Below are positions 28,626 to 38,453 of a DNA stretch of 46,676 bases, piece after piece. A model generated the notes under the pieces. The model was not told the DNA's origin. It ran no database searches and saw only the letters and a program-made list of their open reading frames with translations. The DNA is from Ectocarpus siliculosus (taxonomy: Eukaryota; Sar; Phaeophyceae; Ectocarpales; Ectocarpaceae). The DNA lies in contig FN649742.1 in NCBI GenBank assembly GCA_000310025.1, forward strand, positions 2,662,099-2,708,774, in the 5' to 3' direction. The translations under genes and the position numbers were made by a program. Every line of letters begins with the position of its first letter. The stretch's first letter is position 1.

Positions 28626-28735
28626 TACATACAATCAATCTCGATATGCAAGAGTTTCGGACTTGCGATGTACACCGGAAACATTACGCGGCGTACCGTG
28701 TGAAACCATTTTGCCGTGAAGTAGAGCTTAGAAGG
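28626..28735 (+). repeat. diverged repeat X, copy upstream of 5' LTR
   Basis: TCTCGATATGC, TTCGGACTTGC and ATGTACACCGGAA recur in the same order at 35477-35577, at roughly 75-80% identity by eye, in the same orientation. Confidence 0.6.
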
Positions 28736-28824: not shown

Positions 28825-29535
28825 TGTTATGGCGGCTGCGCGCAGAATCTACACAAAATACTATAATAATGGGCCGTGACTGTTCGATGGTTACGGCGCT
28901 AGGGGTCTGGGGGCTATATTCAGGAATCGAAGTATCGAACACTTCCCTGTTTTCCCTCTAGAGTGATCGAAGAGGCGGCGGATATGCCGCATCTACGAAG
29001 AAGAGGTCAACTTCAACTTGTCCCTTCGCGACACGTTCTCACGAACGTTGTCAACAACCACCGGTGTTTATTAAACACCCCCAATGTGGATGAAAGTTAA
29101 TAAAGCCCGTTAAAGTGCATATATATATCACCCGTCAACCCGCTAACAACATGTCTATCACATGCATGCCTCACTATGCATGTCAACATGATGAGCGGAC
29201 GGGTGATTACCGTGTTGGCCGTTGGTGAGTAAATGACGGTCGACTTCGGCACGACGGTCGTCAGCAAGCTGCTACATTGCTTGCCAGATACCATACATAC
29301 GAGAAGTGGAGACCATCATGGGAGAGACACGTGATCCAGGTAAGCGCCCGGCCCCTCCCACCTTGCCCACAGTGATCCCAGCCCCGAGGAATACGGTCTA
29401 CGCACGAACTGTACTCAGCTACGAAAGGTGAGAGAAGTCTACTTTGTATGAGCGCTTTCTTTTTAGCTGTTTTAACATGGTGAGGCCGGGGAGATTGCGT
29501 AGCACATGATGACCCGGTGCTGGTGGTACAAAACT
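28825..29535 (+). repeat. 5' LTR of gypsy element
   Basis: Starts TGTTATGGCGGCTGC and matches the 3' copy to GGTGGTACAAAACT. Contains AATAAA in GTTAATAAAGCCC (29097-29108), a likely polyadenylation signal, and a TATATATATA stretch just after. TGGTGGTACAAAACTCAGC at 29521 may be the tRNA primer site, which would put the true LTR end at about 29520; the shared sequence nonetheless runs to 29535. Confidence 0.85.
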
Positions 29536-30242
29536 CAGCCATCGGGTCGGTGATTTTATGTTTCGAGGGATCGAACGCGCGTTTTTTGGGGGATTGGATC
29601 TAACTCCAGTGATGGCGCGACTTTCTAGGGGGTCAAAAGCAGGGCAGCTAATATCAGCGGGATAACAACGCGGACTCCGACTGTCAGGAGGAGGAAGAGA
29701 AGAGAGCCTACTAGAGTCGGTCGGACACAGCAGCGGCGGATACAAAAATAGTGCGGAAGACAGCAGAAAATTTCGTGTTACACCGGGCAGCTTTCCATGG
29801 ATCATCAATCATCAGCTATCGTTGAAAGCGAGCAGGTTACAGGTGGCCAAGGACACAGCAGTTTGGAGGGGTCAACTGAGCAAACTGTACGGGTAACGAG
29901 GTAGTGATGTATCGTTGAGAAGACAGAACGAGTGACATATAGGAAGGAGGTGTCTAGCTGAACGCAAGATACACAAACATTTCAGCGCCAAAAATTCCAC
30001 CAGAAACATTTTCAGTAGATTTATTTTGGGGAGCGCCGAAAATACATTTTGAATAACATGGTTCGTTGTACAAGCATCGTGAACGACATTGGCTTCTTCC
30101 GGTGAACCGCTCTTCTTACCGGCTGTCAAGTAGGGCGATCTGGCCCCGAATGACAGATAAGGGTTGCTGTGGGTTAGTACAAGGATGACTCCAGTAGGAC
30201 TGCAGTGAGCTTTTACTGCGAAGTAGCCGTTGAAGTAACACA

Positions 30243-30431
30243 CGCGTTAGGTTACAGCCGTTGAGTAGTATTACCTCCGCCTGCACCAGTATCTAACAGC
30301 ACCACAATCGTCATTCGAAGATTAACTTTTGTGGGGTGCCACACGACTGCTTTTACCCACACTTGTTTGGCTTCTGCGCTCACTGCTGCCACCATGTCTA
30401 CATCGCTTTTGTCTCTTTCACGATCACACGT
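30243..30431 (-). pseudogene. retropepsin-like fragment in inverted orientation
   Basis: On the minus strand the sequence encodes KQVWVKAVVWHP, then RMTIVVLLDTGAGG. A hydrophobic strand followed by LLDTGAGG is the active-site signature of retroviral-type aspartic proteases. It lies where protease should be, upstream of reverse transcriptase, but on the opposite strand from pol, so this block appears to have been inverted. Stops and frameshifts follow downstream. Confidence 0.55.
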
Positions 30432-30464
30432 TGTGTTCCCCGGGGCAAGTGTTACGCGGTTCTT

Positions 30465-31600
30465 TGGTATCGAAGGCTCTCGGGTCTTTGAAAGGAAAAG
30501 GTGTGCGAAATTGGCTCGACGACATTTTTGATCTACACAGACACGATTGAAGAACATCTCCCGCTACTGAGATCGGTTTTGGAAGCGTTGTCAGAGGCGG
30601 GTCTTTCCCTGAACTTAGCAAAATGCAAGTGTTGTTGTTCTCAACAGGAGTTTTTGGGACTGATTATAGATCGCTTGGGATTGCGGCCGTCGCCTTCTAA
30701 GATTGAAGCCATTCAAGGTTTGAAACCAGCATCTAATGTTGAAGAGTTACGAGCTTTGATTGGGATGGCCGGGTTCCTTCGAAGGTTTGTTCCTAAATTC
30801 AGCGAAATTGTGGCTCCACTCACTGACATTTTGCGCAATGACTCTCGGTTTGCGTCGAAGAGAGGACGTAAACTAGCTATTCCGTGGGGTCCAGCCCAAG
30901 ATGAAGCCCTCGCACAGCTCATTCACTGTTTGTCTTCACCGATTCTGGTTCTACCGAATTGGCGTGAGAGGTTCGTGTTGCATACCGATGCTTCCGAAGT
31001 TGGGGGTGGCGCTGCCTTAACCCAAATTCAAGATAGTATTGAACGCGTCATCGCTTTTGCTAGTCATCGGTGGACTCGGACGGATTCCCGGCGATCTCCA
31101 ACAGAAAGAGAAGCGGCAGCTGTGTTATGGGCAGTTGAACATTTTCGACACTATTTATGGGGTCGAAGATTCACCTTAGTCACTGACTGTTCAGCACTAA
31201 CATGGTTGTTCAAAAGCCAGCACTTATCGCCAAAACTTTATCGTTGGGCTCTTCGATTGATGGAGTACGACATGGATGTTCAGTGGCGAGAAGGGCGGAG
31301 TCATCATTTGCCTGATGCGCTGTCTCGATTACCACGTTTTGATATGCCTACTAAGGATATTGATGCCCTTTTTCCGGATGATTCATCTACCAAGCTTTCG
31401 TTCAGGGGTCCTCAGGGTCCGGTTTTGGATGGCATTTTATTGAAGGATTTAGGGGTGGAAGACATCTGGTATCAGGATGGGTCAGCAAACGATCAGTCGT
31501 TGACGAATACAACAACTATTGCGGCGTTATTGGAGACAGACATGATAGATGCTCAGTTGCTCGATGAGTCATATCAATCACCGCCACATCTCTTTGAATA
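30465..31600 (+). pseudogene. gypsy reverse transcriptase (C-terminal half) and RNase H
   Basis: Begins within the palm at KGKGVRNWLDDI (the catalytic x-L-D-D motif), immediately followed by a one-base frameshift in a T run; the frame resumes at 30528 with IYTDTIEEHL. Thumb: LGLIIDRLGLRPSPSKIEAI and MAGFLRRFVPKFSEI. RNase H: HTDASEVGGG (Asp), REAAAVLWAVEHFRHYLW (Glu), VTDCSALTWLF (Asp) and HHLPDALSRLPR, all catalytic positions present. Fingers and the first catalytic Asp are missing. The same open frame runs on into the methyltransferase-like module. Confidence 0.92.
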
Positions 31601-32587
31601 TCAACCTTTAGCGGTCGTGCTCTGCTGCGGGGGGGGAGGTAATATCCTAGCCGCAGAAGGCATTCTAGACGTGAAGGCTGCTATAGAAGCAGACTGGAGA
31701 GGCTTAGAGTGTGCAAGATTTAATCCAGGCGATGGACGTCCTCGGTTGATACGATCATTTCCAGGAGAACCGCTGTGCACTCAACTTTTGCAAGAGGTTC
31801 ACCCGGAGGTGGTTGTATGCAACGTGGAAAAGGATGTGATATGAATCAAGTCAGGTTAATCATGGACACGTTGTTGAGGACGACAGCTGAGATAATAGTA
31901 ATTGAATGCGCAGGTCCGTTTATGGCTTCTAGAACATGGACACAAGAAATATACCCGACTGCGTCTCAAGCATACTATGTGGATCAAGCATACTATGTGG
32001 AGTCAGTGGATTTGAGAGGTATTCAAGTAAATATTCCATCGGGACGGAGAAGAACTTACATTTCATTGGTTAAGAGAGGTAGGTTTCCTAGATTAAGAGA
32101 AAGGCTGAGGGCTTGGAAAAAAATTGTCGAGAGATCGGGTGGAGCGACTCCTTCTTTAGGTGAGTTCTTGAACAAATCTGAAACTTACTTTTTAGAGAGG
32201 AAAAAAGGGGAACGCCACATTTTTTCTTTTGGGGAACCCACCCTGGCAATCTCAAGGGGTCATATAATGGGAACAATACCTCTGCCTGGAGATTATCAAG
32301 TTCATAAAGCGGATTCTGGTAGTATCAAAGAAGCGGTTGAGTTAGAGTTGGAGGACTTTAAGCAGATTCTTACGTCGAAACGTGATTTTGTTATCCCGAG
32401 AGCTCTTAGCCGGGGAGCAGCCGCTAATATATTGTCTAACTATTCCCTTCCACCGATGATGAGGGAGGTTCTCTTGGGCTTGGAGTTGCAAGGGTTCTTT
32501 CGGGAACTTGAGAACTCGTTAGATTGTATTACCGAAGGGTTGGCCGCTTTAAAAGTCACCCCTGCCAGTAACCCGGAGCGCTACTAG
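31600..32587 (+). pseudogene. C5-cytosine DNA methyltransferase-like domain
   Basis: Motif order follows DNA (cytosine-5) methyltransferases. Motif I: VVLCCGGGGNILAAEG (31612-31665), the SAM-binding loop. Motif II: KAAIEADW (about 31675-31698). A frameshift near 31825 then falls at motif IV; HPEVVVCNV precedes it and a Gly-Cys (31832-31837) follows, in place of the usual PPC, so the catalytic Cys environment is degenerate. Motif VI: EIIVIECAGPFMAS (31889-31930), with Glu in the ENV position. Motif VIII: IQVNIPSGRRRTYISLVKRG (32021-32080), resembling 'GVPQxRxRxY'. Motifs IX/X may be FSFGEPTLAISRG (32223-32261) and the later NYSLPPMMREV. The module sits between RNase H and integrase inside the element. 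Assignment rests on motif order, not on a database search; a derived non-catalytic domain is possible. Confidence 0.65.
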
Positions 32588-32597
32588 GAGAACAAGA

Positions 32598-33410
32598 GTG
32601 GTCGAGAGTATTCAACCTGCGCCTAAGTTTGTTCAATCTTCACCAGCAGTAGAGGAGGAGAAGATGGAGACTACCACCCAAGAACCTGTATCTTCTCCAA
32701 TCTTTCCGGAACCCATGTCTCAACCGATACCTGCATCTCCCACGATTTCCCCTCCTCTGAATACGGTTGAATGCAAATCTTCGTTGGTAAGCGAGACCCT
32801 GCGGGTACTAAAAGATTCTGCGTTCATCTTGAATCAACAACGGGCTGATCCTTTCTTGAAGTCACAGCTATCACCTGAAGGAACAGCCATTGGAGATTTT
32901 ATCACTGACGATGAGGGCATATTATGGCATTGTTCTAAAGGGGCGGAACCTACACTAGCAATTCCTCGTTCGTTAGTATCGAGAGTTGTGTCTTTGACCC
33001 ACACTACTTATGGACATCCGGGGGTAGCACGAACTACCTTGCTTGTCACGGCGAAATTTAGTTGGGCGACATTAAAACGGGATGTTCGTGAGTATGTCCT
33101 ATCTTGTGGATGTCGCCGACGGAAAAGAGCCATGAGCAGGAAGGTACACATGCTTCCCGCTAGGTTTTTGAATCCTTGGGAAGTGTTGGAGATGGACATT
33201 CAGGATCTTCATCAGGTATCGGCGGCAGGAAATTGGTATTTGCTGGTGGTTGTAGACAGAGAGGCGCTAGAGGTGAGCAAGAAACTGTTGGAGTTAATGC
33301 TGACTTTTGGCGTACCTGTTTCGATCCGAAGTGATGCTGGGGGGGAATTTACTGCTACTGTGGCCAATCATTTATGCAAATGGTTAAATGTCGCGCTTAT
33401 CATGGTCCTG
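32598..33410 (+). pseudogene. gypsy integrase, zinc-binding and first part of catalytic core
   Basis: A Pro-rich linker is followed by the zinc-binding region THTTYGHPGVARTT...YVLSCGCRRRK (His-His-Cys-Cys with CxC spacing instead of CxxC). The core has EMDIQDLH (first Asp, about 33193) and SIRSDAGGEFTA (second Asp, about 33333). The expected sequence between VVVDR and EALEVSKK looks shortened. The frame is lost near 33390 and continues one frame over. Confidence 0.88.
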
Positions 33411-34408
33411 CAGATTTCTCGCGAAGTCAAGGAGCAGCAGAACGGATGGGGGGATGGTTTCAAGAAGTGTTATCTATTCTTTGCCAATCTTGGCCCCTTC
33501 GATGGGATCATTATGTTTTGCCCGCTTGTTGGATTCAGAGGGTGACTCCAGATCCTACGTTACCTGGGAACCCAACCCCTTTCAGTATTTTGTTTGGACG
33601 CACTCCCCGTACGCCTTTAGATTCGATGACTCGACACATTGATGGAACCGAATTTAGAGGTGGTATGGATAGTTACGTCGCGGAGAAACATCAATCCTTT
33701 GGGGAGGTTCGAAATGCCTTAGAAAAGCGACAAGCCCAGAAAAACAAACAAAGAGAGACCGCAAATGCGGCCATCCAACGAGCCTCGGCTGGTAATCAGG
33801 TTACAGAAGGGAATTTAGTGATGGTTTTGGAAGCTGACAGTTCTCTGAGTTCGCAAGGCCTGCATCCTAAACTGATTCAGGAGCATTATATTGCACCTTG
33901 GATAGTATCAGAAGTAACTAGGTTAGGGCAAAGCATTAAGGTTCGAATGAATGGACGCCGAATCCGAAGAAGAGTGGTTTCCGGGGCAAGTGTTAAGTTA
34001 TTTCATTTGCGCCCTAAAGAATTGCGCCATGATTTTGAAGATGAGTTTGCTCATTGGGCCTGGGGCGCGGACTTGGGTTTAACTGATGTGTCCGTGGCTG
34101 CCTGCCCTCTCTTCACCTTGTTAGATCGCCGGGTCTTATGGAAGAACGATCGGGTTTGGTGTTGGGAGTATCGTGGCCGGTATCAGGACGGTCGTGAGTC
34201 AGAGTGGACTAATGAGGAAGAGGCTTACAATAGCTTTACCTCTCTTCAGTTAGATGTATTTCACGCACTCTGGGAAGAATATCATGATGACACGTGTCGA
34301 CCTAGACCTCCTGAATATCCGAGCAAAGAAGACCGAGATGCAGCCTCTCGTGAACAAGCGCTAAAAGGATTTTCCGGTGGGTACCAAGGTAAGACAGTCG
34401 TTCACTGA
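33374..34408 (+). pseudogene. gypsy integrase, end of core and C-terminal region
   Basis: Continues the integrase after the frameshift: GPADFSRSQGAAERMGGWFQ supplies the third catalytic acidic residue in the QGxxER context. Then FSILFGRTPRTPLD, a coiled NALEKRQAQKNKQRE stretch, and a beta-rich domain (EGNLVMVLE, PWIVSEVTRLGQSIKVRMNG) typical of gypsy integrase C-termini. WEYRGRYQDGRESEWTNEEE resembles the first strands of a chromo-like fold. Confidence 0.85.
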
Positions 34409-34411
34409 TGG

Positions 34412-34571
34412 GGGAGGGCAAGTTAGTGAGCAGACGGGAATGGTTTATGACTTTAGGGAACCGTATTGGAAAGTACGATATCCGGATGGAGATTGGGAGG
34501 AGCTTAGTCGCCGCGAGATAAATAGAGGAAAAACGAAAGCCGACCTTTACAAGGCGTCATCTTCTCAATAA
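34412..34571 (+). pseudogene. Tudor/agenet-like tail of gypsy polyprotein
   Basis: Encodes TGMVYDFREPYWKVRYPDGD followed by WEELSRREI. The pattern G-x-V ... W-x-V-x-Y-x-D-G-D-x-E-E-L is a small Tudor-like barrel often found at the end of algal and protist retroelement polyproteins. It is one frame from the preceding part. The TAA at 34569-34571 is probably the end of pol. Confidence 0.55.
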
Positions 34572-34771
34572 GGGTCTACGAGCTTGGTGTCACGACTCAA
34601 GTGATGTTAAGGACCCTTTCAAGAGCAGCTGGATAAAAATTAAAGATAAGATCAAGAGCAGCTGGATGGAATCAAGAGCAGCTTTGGAAGGTCGAGAGCA
34701 GCTCGGAGGTGTCTGATTCTGGGCGTCTAGCCGGCATTCCGTTAGCATCTTCGCTTGATACGCGCAGTGCT
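34572..34771 (+). repeat. AGAGCAGCT-rich stretch before 3' LTR
   Basis: Four irregular copies of (A/G)AGAGCAGCTGGA-type sequence at about 34620-34705, between the pol stop and the polypurine tract. Confidence 0.5.
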
Positions 34772-34778
34772 GGGGGGA
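34772..34778 (+). promoter_or_regulatory. polypurine tract (plus-strand primer site)
   Basis: GGGGGGA abuts the TG start of the 3' LTR, the expected position for plus-strand priming. This fixes the LTR boundary and the element's orientation. Confidence 0.7.
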
Positions 34779-35471
34779 TGTTATGGCGGCTGCACGCAGA
34801 ATCTACACAAAATACTATAATGGGCCGTGACTGTTCGATGGTTACGGCGCTAGGGGTCTGGGGGCTATATTCAGGAATCGAAGTATCGAACACTTCCCTG
34901 TTTTCCCTCTAGAGTGATCGAAGAGGCGGCGGATATGCCGCATCTACGAAGAAGAGGTCAACTTCAACTTGTCCCTTCGCGACACGTTCTCACGAACGTT
35001 GTCAACAACCACCGGTGTTTATTAAACACTCCCAATGTGGATGAAAGTTAATAAAGCCCGTTAAAGTGCATATATCACCCGTCAACCCGCTAACAACGTA
35101 TCTATCACATGCCTCACTATGCATGTCAACATGGGCGAACGGGTGATTACCGTGTTGGCCGTTGGTGAGTAAATGACGGTCGACTTCGGCACGACGGTCG
35201 TCAGCAAGCTGCTACATTGCTTGCCAGATACCATACGAGAAGTGGAGACCATCATGGGAGAGACACGTGATCCAGGTAAGCGCCCGGCCCCTCCCACCTT
35301 GCCCACAGTGATCCCAGCCCCGAGGAATACGGTCTACGCACGAACTGTACTCAGCTACGAAAGGTGAGAGAAGTCTACTTTGTATGAGCGCTTTCCTTTT
35401 AGCTGTTTTAACATGGCAAGGCCGGGGAGATTGCGTAGCACATGATGACCCGGTGCTGGTGGTACAAAACT
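34779..35471 (+). repeat. 3' LTR of gypsy element
   Basis: Begins TGTTATGG directly after the purine tract and matches the 5' copy throughout, with shorter TA and ACAT repeats. Confidence 0.87.
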
Positions 35472-35476
35472 ACGGT

Positions 35477-35577
35477 CTTACAATCTCGATATGCGAGGTT
35501 TTCGGACTTGCAATGTACACCGGAAGCATTACTCGGCGTTCAGTGTTCAAACCATTACCGTGAAAGTGGTAGCCGCC
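35477..35577 (+). repeat. diverged repeat X, copy downstream of 3' LTR
   Basis: Second copy of the repeat at 28626-28735, starting six bases after the 3' LTR match ends. Confidence 0.6.
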
Positions 35578-35806: not shown

Positions 35807-36919
35807 CTAAACACGAAAAAATAGAAAGGTCAGGCACAGTGACATGGCGTGCCTGGAGTTTACATGGCTACATACATACATACGTGTTGCGAAGCCGGAG
35901 ACATGCAACACCGAAAGACACAGAAAAACGAAGACCTTGTCTTCGATAAGCGACCTTACATGATGATACTTGATGTCTATGTGCTTCGTACGCGGCGTGA
36001 TCTTGTTGTTCACACTAGTCGAGATCGCGCCAGTGTTGTCCTCGAACATCCTGGTCGCCTCCTCTTGCGTCTGGTTGATGGTGCTCAGAAGGTGACGGTA
36101 GTGGATGATCATCGTGCATGCCTTCGACATCGCGACATACTCTGCTTCCACCGAGGAGAGGGCCACCACCGTTTGCTTAACTGACCTCCAGTCCACCGGT
36201 CCGCCTGCCAGAAACAGAACAACGCCTGTAGTCGAGCGACGGTCATCTCCATCGCCTGCGAAGTCGGAATCAACGTATGCTGTCAGTAGGTTTCCTTGTT
36301 CAGCGTCTTCCCTGTACGTTATCCCAATGAAGCTCGTTCCCTTCAGGTACCGGAGCAGTCGCTTCAGTTTGGCCATCGCCTTCGGGCCTGGTTTGGCCAT
36401 GCTCCTGGTAAGCACCAACACCGTGTGGGCGATCTCCGGCCTCGATCCCCTGCACAGGTAAAGAACCGAACCCGTGGCTGATCTGAACATCGTGGTGTCC
36501 TCTGGCGACAGTGCTTCTTCCTCCACGACACGTATCGTACCAACCTCAGCCGGAGTCTTCGTCGGGTGTGCATCTGCCATGCCATACTTAGCAAGGACGG
36601 CCTTGGTGTACACCTCCTGTGTTAAGAGAATCGTTCCTGCCTCAACGCTTCGCTCAATGGCCTTTCCAAGGAGGAACCTCGCATCCCCTAGGTCCACCGT
36701 ATCGAACCGCTCCTTTAGCTGCTCTATTATCGTCGACACCTGATCCCCGTCGGTTCCGGTGAACAGGATGTCGTCTACATAAACAAGGAGAATTACTTCC
36801 CCCCGTTCAGGACGTATAGGCAGGGGTCCGCCGTGCTTTGGATGAATCCGATTTCCAGCAAGTACTCGTGAAACGTGCCATTCCATCCCTTCGGGGATAG
36901 GCGTAGACCGTAAAGCCAC
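35807..36919 (-). pseudogene. copia reverse transcriptase (palm/thumb) and RNase H
   Basis: YVDDILFTGTDGDQ is the reverse transcriptase active site. Then FLLGKAIERS, LLTQEVYTKAVLAKYGM, SATGSVLYLCRGSRPEIA, LKRLLRYLKGT. RNase H: AYVDSDFAGDGDDRRSTTGV, VALSSVEAEYVAMSKA, and TPRTKHIDIKYHHVR, retaining the acidic residues and His. The first ~45 residues are out of frame with the upstream reverse transcriptase; the join lies near 36810. The C-terminus runs past the conserved end into unrelated sequence. Confidence 0.93.
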
Positions 36920-37524
36920 GCCTTCAGTAGCCAGACCTGCCTAGCGTGTTCCGACGAACACTGGAAACCCTTCGGAGGTATCACGTAGATGGGTTCCGCT
37001 TCTTCGGGGATTCTGGCATGGAGGAATGCCGTCTTGATGTCAGCTTGCTTGAGAACGAGACCTTGATGTGCAGCTATAGCAAACACGAGATGAACAGATT
37101 CCATAGACGCCACTGGTGCTGCCTTGTCCGCTCCCGTATCAGCTTCATGAAAACCTTGCACCACTACGCGGCTTTTCGGGTGAATCGGTACACCATCCTG
37201 GTTGTACTTCCACTTGTGTATGAATTTCGACGGAATCAGTGGAACACCCTCCGGCGGATCAACCCAGTCAAATACGTCATGCTCATATAGCGACTGTCCC
37301 TCGTCGCTCATGCTCGCTTTCCAGAGTTCTGAATCCGGTCCGCTTACCGCTTCGTCGTAGTTCGCGGGGTCGGAAGGCATGTAGCCCACCTCACCAGGGC
37401 TGCCCGTCCCCATGTTTCCGAGCTCGCCGCCAGTCAGCAAAGCATGTTCGATCCTCTCGTATGCTTCCTCCGTCGTATGCAACGCCTCCTCCGTCGTATG
37501 CAGGTTTAACACCTGCCTCGGCAC
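36793..37524 (-). pseudogene. copia reverse transcriptase, N-terminal part
   Basis: Contains SDEGQSLYEHDVFDWVDPP, SKFIHKWKYNQDGVPIHPKS, RVVVQGFHEADTGAD, VLKQADIKTAFLHARIPEE (first catalytic Asp) and KAWLYGLRLSPKGWNGTFHE, all in family order. The start region carries two copies of a short LHTTEEA unit. Confidence 0.93.
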
Positions 37525-38453
37525 TGGGATCCTGCTGCTCCGCCGTATTTGCAGTCCTTCTGCTTCTGCCTCCGCGTCGTTTTCTTCATATATGTTTCGA
37601 CAGAGCCAGGCAGGTAAATTGTTTGGCTCAGGTCAGGAAGCGGGTCGTGTCCCGTCTTGGGTTTGACCACGTCACGCGTCTGTTTCTCGCGAAATGAGAC
37701 CTCTGCTGAGTTGGTGATTTTGCGTGGATCGGCAGGGTCCCACAGCCGGTACGTCTTGTTGTGCGTGTTGTACCCCACCAGGTACATCTTCTTCGCCCTG
37801 GCGGCCAGTTTGTTCGACCTGAATCTTGCCTCTACGTGTTTGAAGGCTACCGATCCCCACTCATGGATGTGTGACAAACTGCCAAGTTGCTTGTCTTGCC
37901 ATACCTCTGGCGGTGCCTTGCCGTCCAAGACATCCGTTGGCGTGCGGTTCTTGATGTATACCGCAGTTTTGATGGCCTCAGCCCACAGCTGGGCCGGAAG
38001 GTGAGGCGCCCCCAGGAGAAGGTTGCGAGCAGTACCAATGATGGTGCCGAATCCGCGCTCAGCTATGGCGTTTCCTTCAGGGATGTAAGGAGCATTCGTT
38101 TGAATAGTGATCCCAAGTGACTCGCACAGTGCCTGGAACCTCCCCTTGAACTCAGCTTCCCCATCGCATTGTATTTTACCGATGCAGAGACCTTCAGGAT
38201 CAGCGACATCCTGGACAACCGTTTGAAGCGCCTCAACAGCTTCGTCTTTGCTCTTGATTGGAATCCCCCACCTCATCCGCGACTTGTCATCCGTGAACAT
38301 CACGAGGGATTGGCAACCCCCGTACGACCCGACGGGATGCTTCCCCCACAGGTCAACATGCACGATCTCGAGCCGTGTCTGGGCGCGTGGGCGGTCAGAT
38401 GGAGGGTGACTGATTTTCTTACCTGTTTGAGGTGGCACAGACCTCACCGTCAC
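37506..38453 (-). pseudogene. copia integrase core
   Basis: Has VHVDLWGKHPVGSYGG (first Asp), MFTDDKSRMRWGIPI, IQCDGEAEFKGRFQALCES (second Asp), NAPYIPEGNAIAERGFGTII (Glu), ARNLLLGAPHLPAQLWAEAI and the conserved WGSVAFKH...KKMYLVGYNTHNKTYRLWD tail. The DD(35)E triad is intact. The C-terminus shifts frame into reverse transcriptase near 37515. Confidence 0.94.

Follow-up and report, generated by a model that had tools for sequence, protein, structure and literature searches.

A Ty3/gypsy retrotransposon of the brown alga Ectocarpus siliculosus carries, between the RNase H and the integrase of its Pol polyprotein, an additional domain with the features of a C5-cytosine methyltransferase (C5-MTase). 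The element lies in a 46,676-nt stretch of contig FN649742.1 (the window; G000:C17:2662099-2708774), and its relatives were searched for in the 189 Mb genome assembly and in databases. The reading that we favour, and hold to be probable, is that a C5-MTase-derived domain is borne on Pol in this family, that the branches keeping the catalytic Cys are possibly active, and that the branch of the window copy has a retained pseudo-methyltransferase. It builds on the modelled fold, the position of the domain, its residue pattern and a selection signal.

The domain has the motifs and the predicted fold of C5-MTases

In the window the domain spans two frames, with the break near 31830-31845, and the frames were read separately, not joined. 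The first part (31611-31841, plus strand, open reading frame (ORF) 30492-31844) contains the S-adenosylmethionine (SAM) loop VVLCCGGGGN (31614-31643), the acidic motif II AAIEADW (31677-31697) and a motif IV region, VVVCNVE (31809-31829), that has no Cys at the catalytic column; this part is homologous to the domain of the genome copy L021, and models of relatives are the basis of its fold. The second part (31844-32500, end approximate, plus strand, ORF 31724-32587) was delimited by genome matches and motif alignment, and contains IECAG (motif VI, 31901-31915), SGRRRTYISL (with the SGRRR of motif VIII, 32039-32068) and a target-recognition and motif X-like region. The domain is bordered by an RNase H (30885-31268, plus strand; PF17917 6.6e-32, PF17919 9.4e-27) and by an integrase H2C2 zinc-binding domain (32961-33125, plus strand; PF17921 9.8e-11). 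Places, order and location of these motifs were as the original prediction, made from the window sequence, had described them. The window copy has a short in-frame duplication (YYVDQAYYVES, window 31960-32010) that L021, L028 and L030 lack.

Models were predicted for the domains of two genome copies, L022 and L021. Residues 20-318 of the L022 model aligned to residues 1-324 of M.HaeIII and reached the C-terminal end of this enzyme, and the predicted models (the L021 model being the weaker) fold as C5-MTases do, with motif X returning at the C-terminal end. With VIA-align, all of the 50 listed rows per model were C5-type by title, except 3g7u, which is titled DNA modification methyltransferase only. 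DNMT3 chains were observed among the Foldseek rows for the L021 model; they were not among the 50 listed VIA-align rows per model, which excludes nothing.

At the sequence level the similarity is faint. With PF00145, no match was found in the window pieces (n = 4), one weak match (E 0.34) was found in six genome copies, and one match above threshold (P0007) and two below it in 14 of the 19 database relatives; in a PF00145 search of the whole genome no element copy was listed at E up to 0.1. A search of PDB sequences with the family profile gave no methyltransferase, and one chance row (E 1.5). In NCBIfam, dcm reached 0.0077 in P0007, far below the cut-off, and a chance seadornavirus row was obtained with L021. 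When trimmed alignments were compared with eight MTases by hhalign, P was 4.9e-5 when the window subfamily was left out (13 rows) and 1.7e-5 when it was included (17 rows); the probability was weaker in global mode (24.4% and 33.8%), and the untrimmed, tail-laden alignment A2 gave no match against Dcm alone. Matches to PHROG 'DNA methyltransferase' families were also found. The domain is so divergent that it could be placed in no DNMT class. A C5-MTase-like module within a Ty3/gypsy polyprotein, as originally predicted, is nevertheless upheld by the fold, the profile-profile comparison, the above-threshold PF00145 match of one relative and the PHROG matches. Among the results on which that prediction had staked itself, the fold matches and the Cys found in other branches spoke for it, and the window without a PF00145 match and the intact copies of the same subfamily without Cys spoke against it.

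The fold also bears on the substrate. A DNMT2-like role of the domain in RNA methylation (e.g., of the element RNA or of its tRNA primer) is unlikely, though the best placed of the alternatives: the first Foldseek rows for both models were DNMT2, and a retroelement uses a tRNA primer. However, the best VIA-align rows were M.HaeIII and M.HhaI, and DNMT2 came to within some 1-2 Z units of them, so that the fold does not decide between a DNA and an RNA substrate.

The domain seems confined to one Gypsy lineage

When the second half of the window domain was used as query, 47 stretches of the genome were matched, and the domain of L022 matched 87 (stretches, not copies, in both cases); since the same domain stands at homologous positions in many genome copies, it is not a chance find. 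Open frames of 1943 aa (L021), 1807 aa (L022) and 1649 aa (L023) each have the order RNase H, domain, integrase, and PF00078 was matched over its full length in L021 and L022. The long terminal repeats (LTRs) of L028, a member of the window subfamily, are identical over 636 bases and those of L030 differ at 2 of 638 bases, which indicates that the window subfamily moved recently.

Two of the 19 database relatives are named to species, P0009 (Ectocarpus fasciculatus) and P0019 (Ectocarpus sp. CCAP 1310/34). P0009 reached at most 53% against this genome when compared along its entire length, and up to 84% within a piece of 96 residues. Other integrases of the genome, such as those on C14, C156, C150 and C227, match P0009 over the core only, and none of them is among the genome matches of the L022 domain; hence, as far as these sequence matches go, the domain seems to be confined to one Gypsy lineage among several in the genome. 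A scan of viral_contigs and genome_contigs found no relatives, so that this route revealed neither a viral nor a prokaryotic donor. By eye, the N-terminal parts of P0018 and P0019 are Gag-like, with a CCCH-type zinc-finger pattern instead of a zinc knuckle.

A tree of the reverse transcriptase (RT)-RNase H region was made with 12 rows (two of 14, L038 and L034, were dropped as too short) and one of the domain with 24 rows (six of 30 were left out: Wpart1, P0005, P0019, L036, L027 and P0011). The window pair, the L022 group, L023 with L024, and P0016 with P0017 are common to both, and P0020 has no settled position. Where both trees resolve the main groups, they are thus concordant, which is what a single entry of the domain, followed by joint descent with the element, would produce.

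The catalytic Cys is absent from the window branch

The motif census comprised 15 of the 20 genome loci that had been retrieved at 8-10 kb, 13 of the 19 database relatives and the second piece of the window (L025, L029, L031, L039, L040, P0008, P0009, P0012-P0015 and the first window piece were left out); motif IV was additionally inspected in L029, L031, L039 and L040, the last of which gave no match. The motif VI Glu was observed in 28 of 29 rows (Gln in P0023) and the second Arg of motif VIII in all 28 rows with letters there, the window included in both. Of the 25 rows with letters at the Cys column of motif IV, 18 have the Cys (9/15 genome copies and 9/10 database relatives). The rows lacking it are L021, L028 and L030 (Glu), P0022 (Gly), L034 (Asp), L037 (Tyr) and L036, which was counted although its motif IV stretch looks frame-shifted.

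In two points the original prediction does not hold. The motif IV Cys of the window lies outside the catalytic column, which is occupied by Glu in the window, L021, L028, L030, L031 and L039 and by Gly in L029; apart from the window these are the six loci of its subfamily in which the motif stands in an open stretch. Nor do open-frame copies restore PPC and ENV: outside the window subfamily G-N-A-C prevails among the rows, and the residue after the motif VI Glu is S, C, A, T, N or K. The domain tree unites P0006 and P0022 with the window subfamily in a single clade (100/98), in which the Cys was probably lost once.

In six loci of the window branch a Cys is located three residues downstream of the catalytic column (KGC). 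This shifted Cys, together with the nearly universal Glu and Arg and the purifying selection described below, would suit a DNA C5-MTase that is active and methylates its own element in every branch, as demonstrated for SymbioDIRS-Dnmt3. We regard this as improbable, a little more so than RNA methylation, since both places are without Cys in the relative P0022 (ANIGKGAS), the window branch has a shortened motif IV loop, and Ectocarpus is reported to have no or negligible 5-methylcytosine (5mC).

The domain appears to be under purifying selection

In the window subfamily, the ratio of nonsynonymous to synonymous substitution rates (dN/dS) of the domain was 0.25-0.48 in five comparisons with L021, and that of the linker after the domain was 0.50-1.05. 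In the neutrality test of the window domain against L021, 19 nonsynonymous and 22 synonymous changes were counted (p 2.3e-5), and the corresponding tests with L028 (p 0.0015) and L030 (p 0.0023) also deviated from neutrality, whereas the linker did not (p 0.28-1). In the L022 group dN/dS of the domain was 0.21-0.30 in six comparisons, and it was 0.48 for L023 against L024; the linker values there were also below 1 (0.25-0.46 in five comparisons, and 0.60). The linker is thus a neutral control in the window subfamily only, because it is not neutral in the L022 group. Synonymous change was saturated in the wide comparisons (L023 with L033 and with L034). RNase H gave 0.06-0.09 (two comparisons) and integrase 0.18-0.48, so by these rates the Cys-less branch appears to keep its domain under purifying selection, with a constraint that is looser than that on RNase H and similar to that on integrase.

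That the captured MTase is merely decaying in the window branch, as a neutral relic, is a still poorer account. The Cys is lost, ENV and P-C are altered, the window copy is frame-broken and 5′-rearranged, and two of the five neutrality tests are weak. However, the neutrality tests as a whole already weaken it, the domain is more constrained than the linker, and the identical LTRs of L028 point to a recent spread of the subfamily with the domain in place. Another Rossmann-fold methyltransferase, not of the C5 type, is very improbable: the KsgA rRNA methyltransferase appeared from rank 16 in the Foldseek rows of the weaker L021 model, but the VIA-align titles, the motif order I-II-IV-VI-VIII, the alignment up to the M.HaeIII C-terminal end and the PF00145 match in P0007 all argue against it.

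A proposed history of the domain

In the history that we favour, a Ty3/gypsy lineage would have acquired a C5-cytosine-methyltransferase-derived Pol domain between RNase H and integrase, by what may have been a single entry, and the domain would then have travelled with the element. Many copies outside the window branch keep the motif IV Cys, the motif VI Glu and the second motif VIII Arg, and may have retained the ability to methylate cytosine; the simplest option for their target would be the complementary DNA (cDNA) of the element itself or the integration target. In the window branch, the loss of the Cys and the shortening of the motif IV loop would have preceded the spread of the present copies, and the pseudo-methyltransferase would have been kept most likely for the binding of nucleic acid and/or SAM, in aid of the RT/RNase H/integrase complex. 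The single entry, the substrate, the activity and the pseudoenzyme role are the parts of this history that we infer.

Several observations weigh against it. The L021 model is of low confidence beyond residue ~190, and the four-row alignment of the window subfamily alone gave no match to C5-MTases in hhalign (P 0.31). When compared with the reference Dcm, the rows with letters have other residues in place of the SAM-loop Phe, the P-C Pro and the QxRxR Gln, and the Pro was found in no census row; the Asn of ENV is retained in P0007 and L038 only, and Lys replaces the first Arg of QxRxR in all but the window subfamily and P0006. Within the window subfamily, the alignment is least certain at motif IV. 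The Cys column is empty in P0006, so that the clade-wide loss rests on the window subfamily and P0022; L034 and L037, genome copies outside the clade, also lack the Cys, and P0023, which has it and is drawn next to the Cys-less clade, is a long branch of unsure place. Finally, the neutrality test of the domain was marginal for L029 (p 0.04) and not significant for L031 (p 0.09), and all selection comparisons of the window subfamily share L021 and are not independent.

Structure of the element in the window

The element extends from 28825 to 35469 on the plus strand, LTR to LTR. Its 5′ LTR (28825-29535) and 3′ LTR (34779-35469) form a direct repeat whose ends are approximate, with 9 mismatches in 691 aligned bases and six gap runs; no clear target-site duplication was seen by eye. 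Its assignment to Ty3/gypsy follows the LTRs in the window and the ordered RT, RNase H, integrase H2C2 and rve domains in P0001 and P0002. The window copy is damaged: the 5′ part, including most of the RT, is gone, a protease fragment is inverted, and Pol is split over several frames. The fragment of the aspartic protease region (30270-30445, minus strand) matches L021 8074-8248 at 94% and is inverted relative to the remainder of the element, and DTGAGGGN is encoded in its antisense ORF 30252-30563. The C-terminal remnant of the RT (30528-30668, plus strand; residues 13-59 of the ORF from 30492) gave a PF00078 match of 1.4e-5 and 25.3 bits, below the gathering score. After the RNase H, the extra domain and the integrase zinc-binding domain, the remaining order is completed by an integrase core that is partial in this frame (33237-33398, plus strand; PF00665 0.081, below the gathering score; 2.8e-8 in the open-frame copy L021, P0001) and by a Tudor-like C-terminal segment (34436-34525, plus strand), the counterpart by eye of P0001 residues 1899-1928.

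A 66-base direct repeat, 88% alike, was observed outside both LTRs, at 28636-28701 and 35481-35546; it may belong to an older repeat that was the insertion site of the element. Just downstream, a Ty1/copia-like polyprotein (RT/RNase H region, from a reading of translations by eye) occupies 35807-37632 on the minus strand.

Host methylation and comparison with known systems

The only place listed in the genome with PF00145 consists of two exons, by position one gene (C2:8124750-8127041), and the pieces around them read PPCQPF, ENV and TTFTKGY, the last of which we take to be a DNMT2-like motif. From its sequence the gene looks like DNMT2. The search scores the best candidates only, and exons singly, so that the genome may have further DNMTs. 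DNMT2 (TRDMT1) shares the fold of the domain studied here and heads its Foldseek rows, but it is an exon-split host gene outside retroelements, with classical PPCQ and ENV. In PMC13076208, brown algae are described as having no DNMTs other than DNMT2, and the original prediction's statement on Ectocarpus methylation agrees with what is reported in PMC3145265 and PMC12477816, namely no or negligible 5mC. Counter to such a setting, early-branching brown algae with DNMT1 are mentioned in PMC12344493, and about 1.4% of cytosines are reported to be methylated in the kelp Saccharina japonica (PMC6916402).

Retrotransposon-borne DNMTs are known in dinoflagellates and charophytes (PMC5890265). The closest in kind is KnitGypsy-Dnmt3 of Klebsormidium nitens, which also has a C5-MTase domain in Pol of an LTR Gypsy element and purifying selection on it; it is, however, of the DNMT3 type, with conserved key residues and a host that has 5mC, whereas here no DNMT class is assignable and the window branch has no Cys. 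This element is an LTR Gypsy in PMC5890265, and the streptophyte case is called LTR Copia in PMC12344493. SymbioDIRS-Dnmt3 and SymbioLINE-Dnmt of Symbiodinium likewise place a C5-MTase on a retrotransposon, but of other classes. According to PMC5890265, key residues are kept in all three families, two SymbioDIRS domains were active in yeast, whose DNA they methylated, the Klebsormidium Gypsy domain was inconclusive, and action on the element cDNA was proposed.

Within Ectocarpus, Gypsy-10_Ec32 (PMC12477816) is a Gypsy lineage with a Tudor domain; the elements described here have a putative Tudor-like C-terminus, in which PF21743 stayed below the gathering score (E 0.0038 in P0001, 0.0068 in P0002, 1.5 in P0003, 0.0026 in P0017 and 0.036 in P0019). 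On account of this C-terminus our elements probably belong to that lineage, by comparison of descriptions. In the main text of PMC12477816, both mentions of 'methyltransferase' concern Sola1-1_Ec32 and histone enzymes, not Gypsy-10_Ec32. The ParB-methyltransferase of Sola1-1_Ec32 is also carried by an Ectocarpus transposon, but this is a DNA transposon, and the enzyme is predicted to be of the N4-cytosine or N6-adenine type, a family other than that of our domain. No report of a C5-MTase in a brown-algal Gypsy element was found in the literature searched, supplements not covered. The domain is thus like the retrotransposon DNMTs in kind, and is set apart by its divergence, its probable lineage and its selected Cys-less branch.

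A wider picture is possible, and we put it forward tentatively, as less probable than the history above: in a host lineage that has lost DNA cytosine methylation, an old Ty3/gypsy family may have kept a captured C5-MTase, with the full catalytic set in some branches, possibly the sole source of C5-methylation in the host DNA, and with a dead but selected pseudo-methyltransferase in one branch, serving in integration or in reverse transcription. A published survey of DNMTs (PMC12344493) used PF00145 with E below 1e-4, and the element copies here do not reach PF00145. In recently spread brown-algal elements, C5-MTase-derived domains have probably been overlooked as a class. The finding makes it testable whether a retroelement needs the methylation chemistry or only the fold, and whether retroelements are the origin of any 5mC traces in brown algae.
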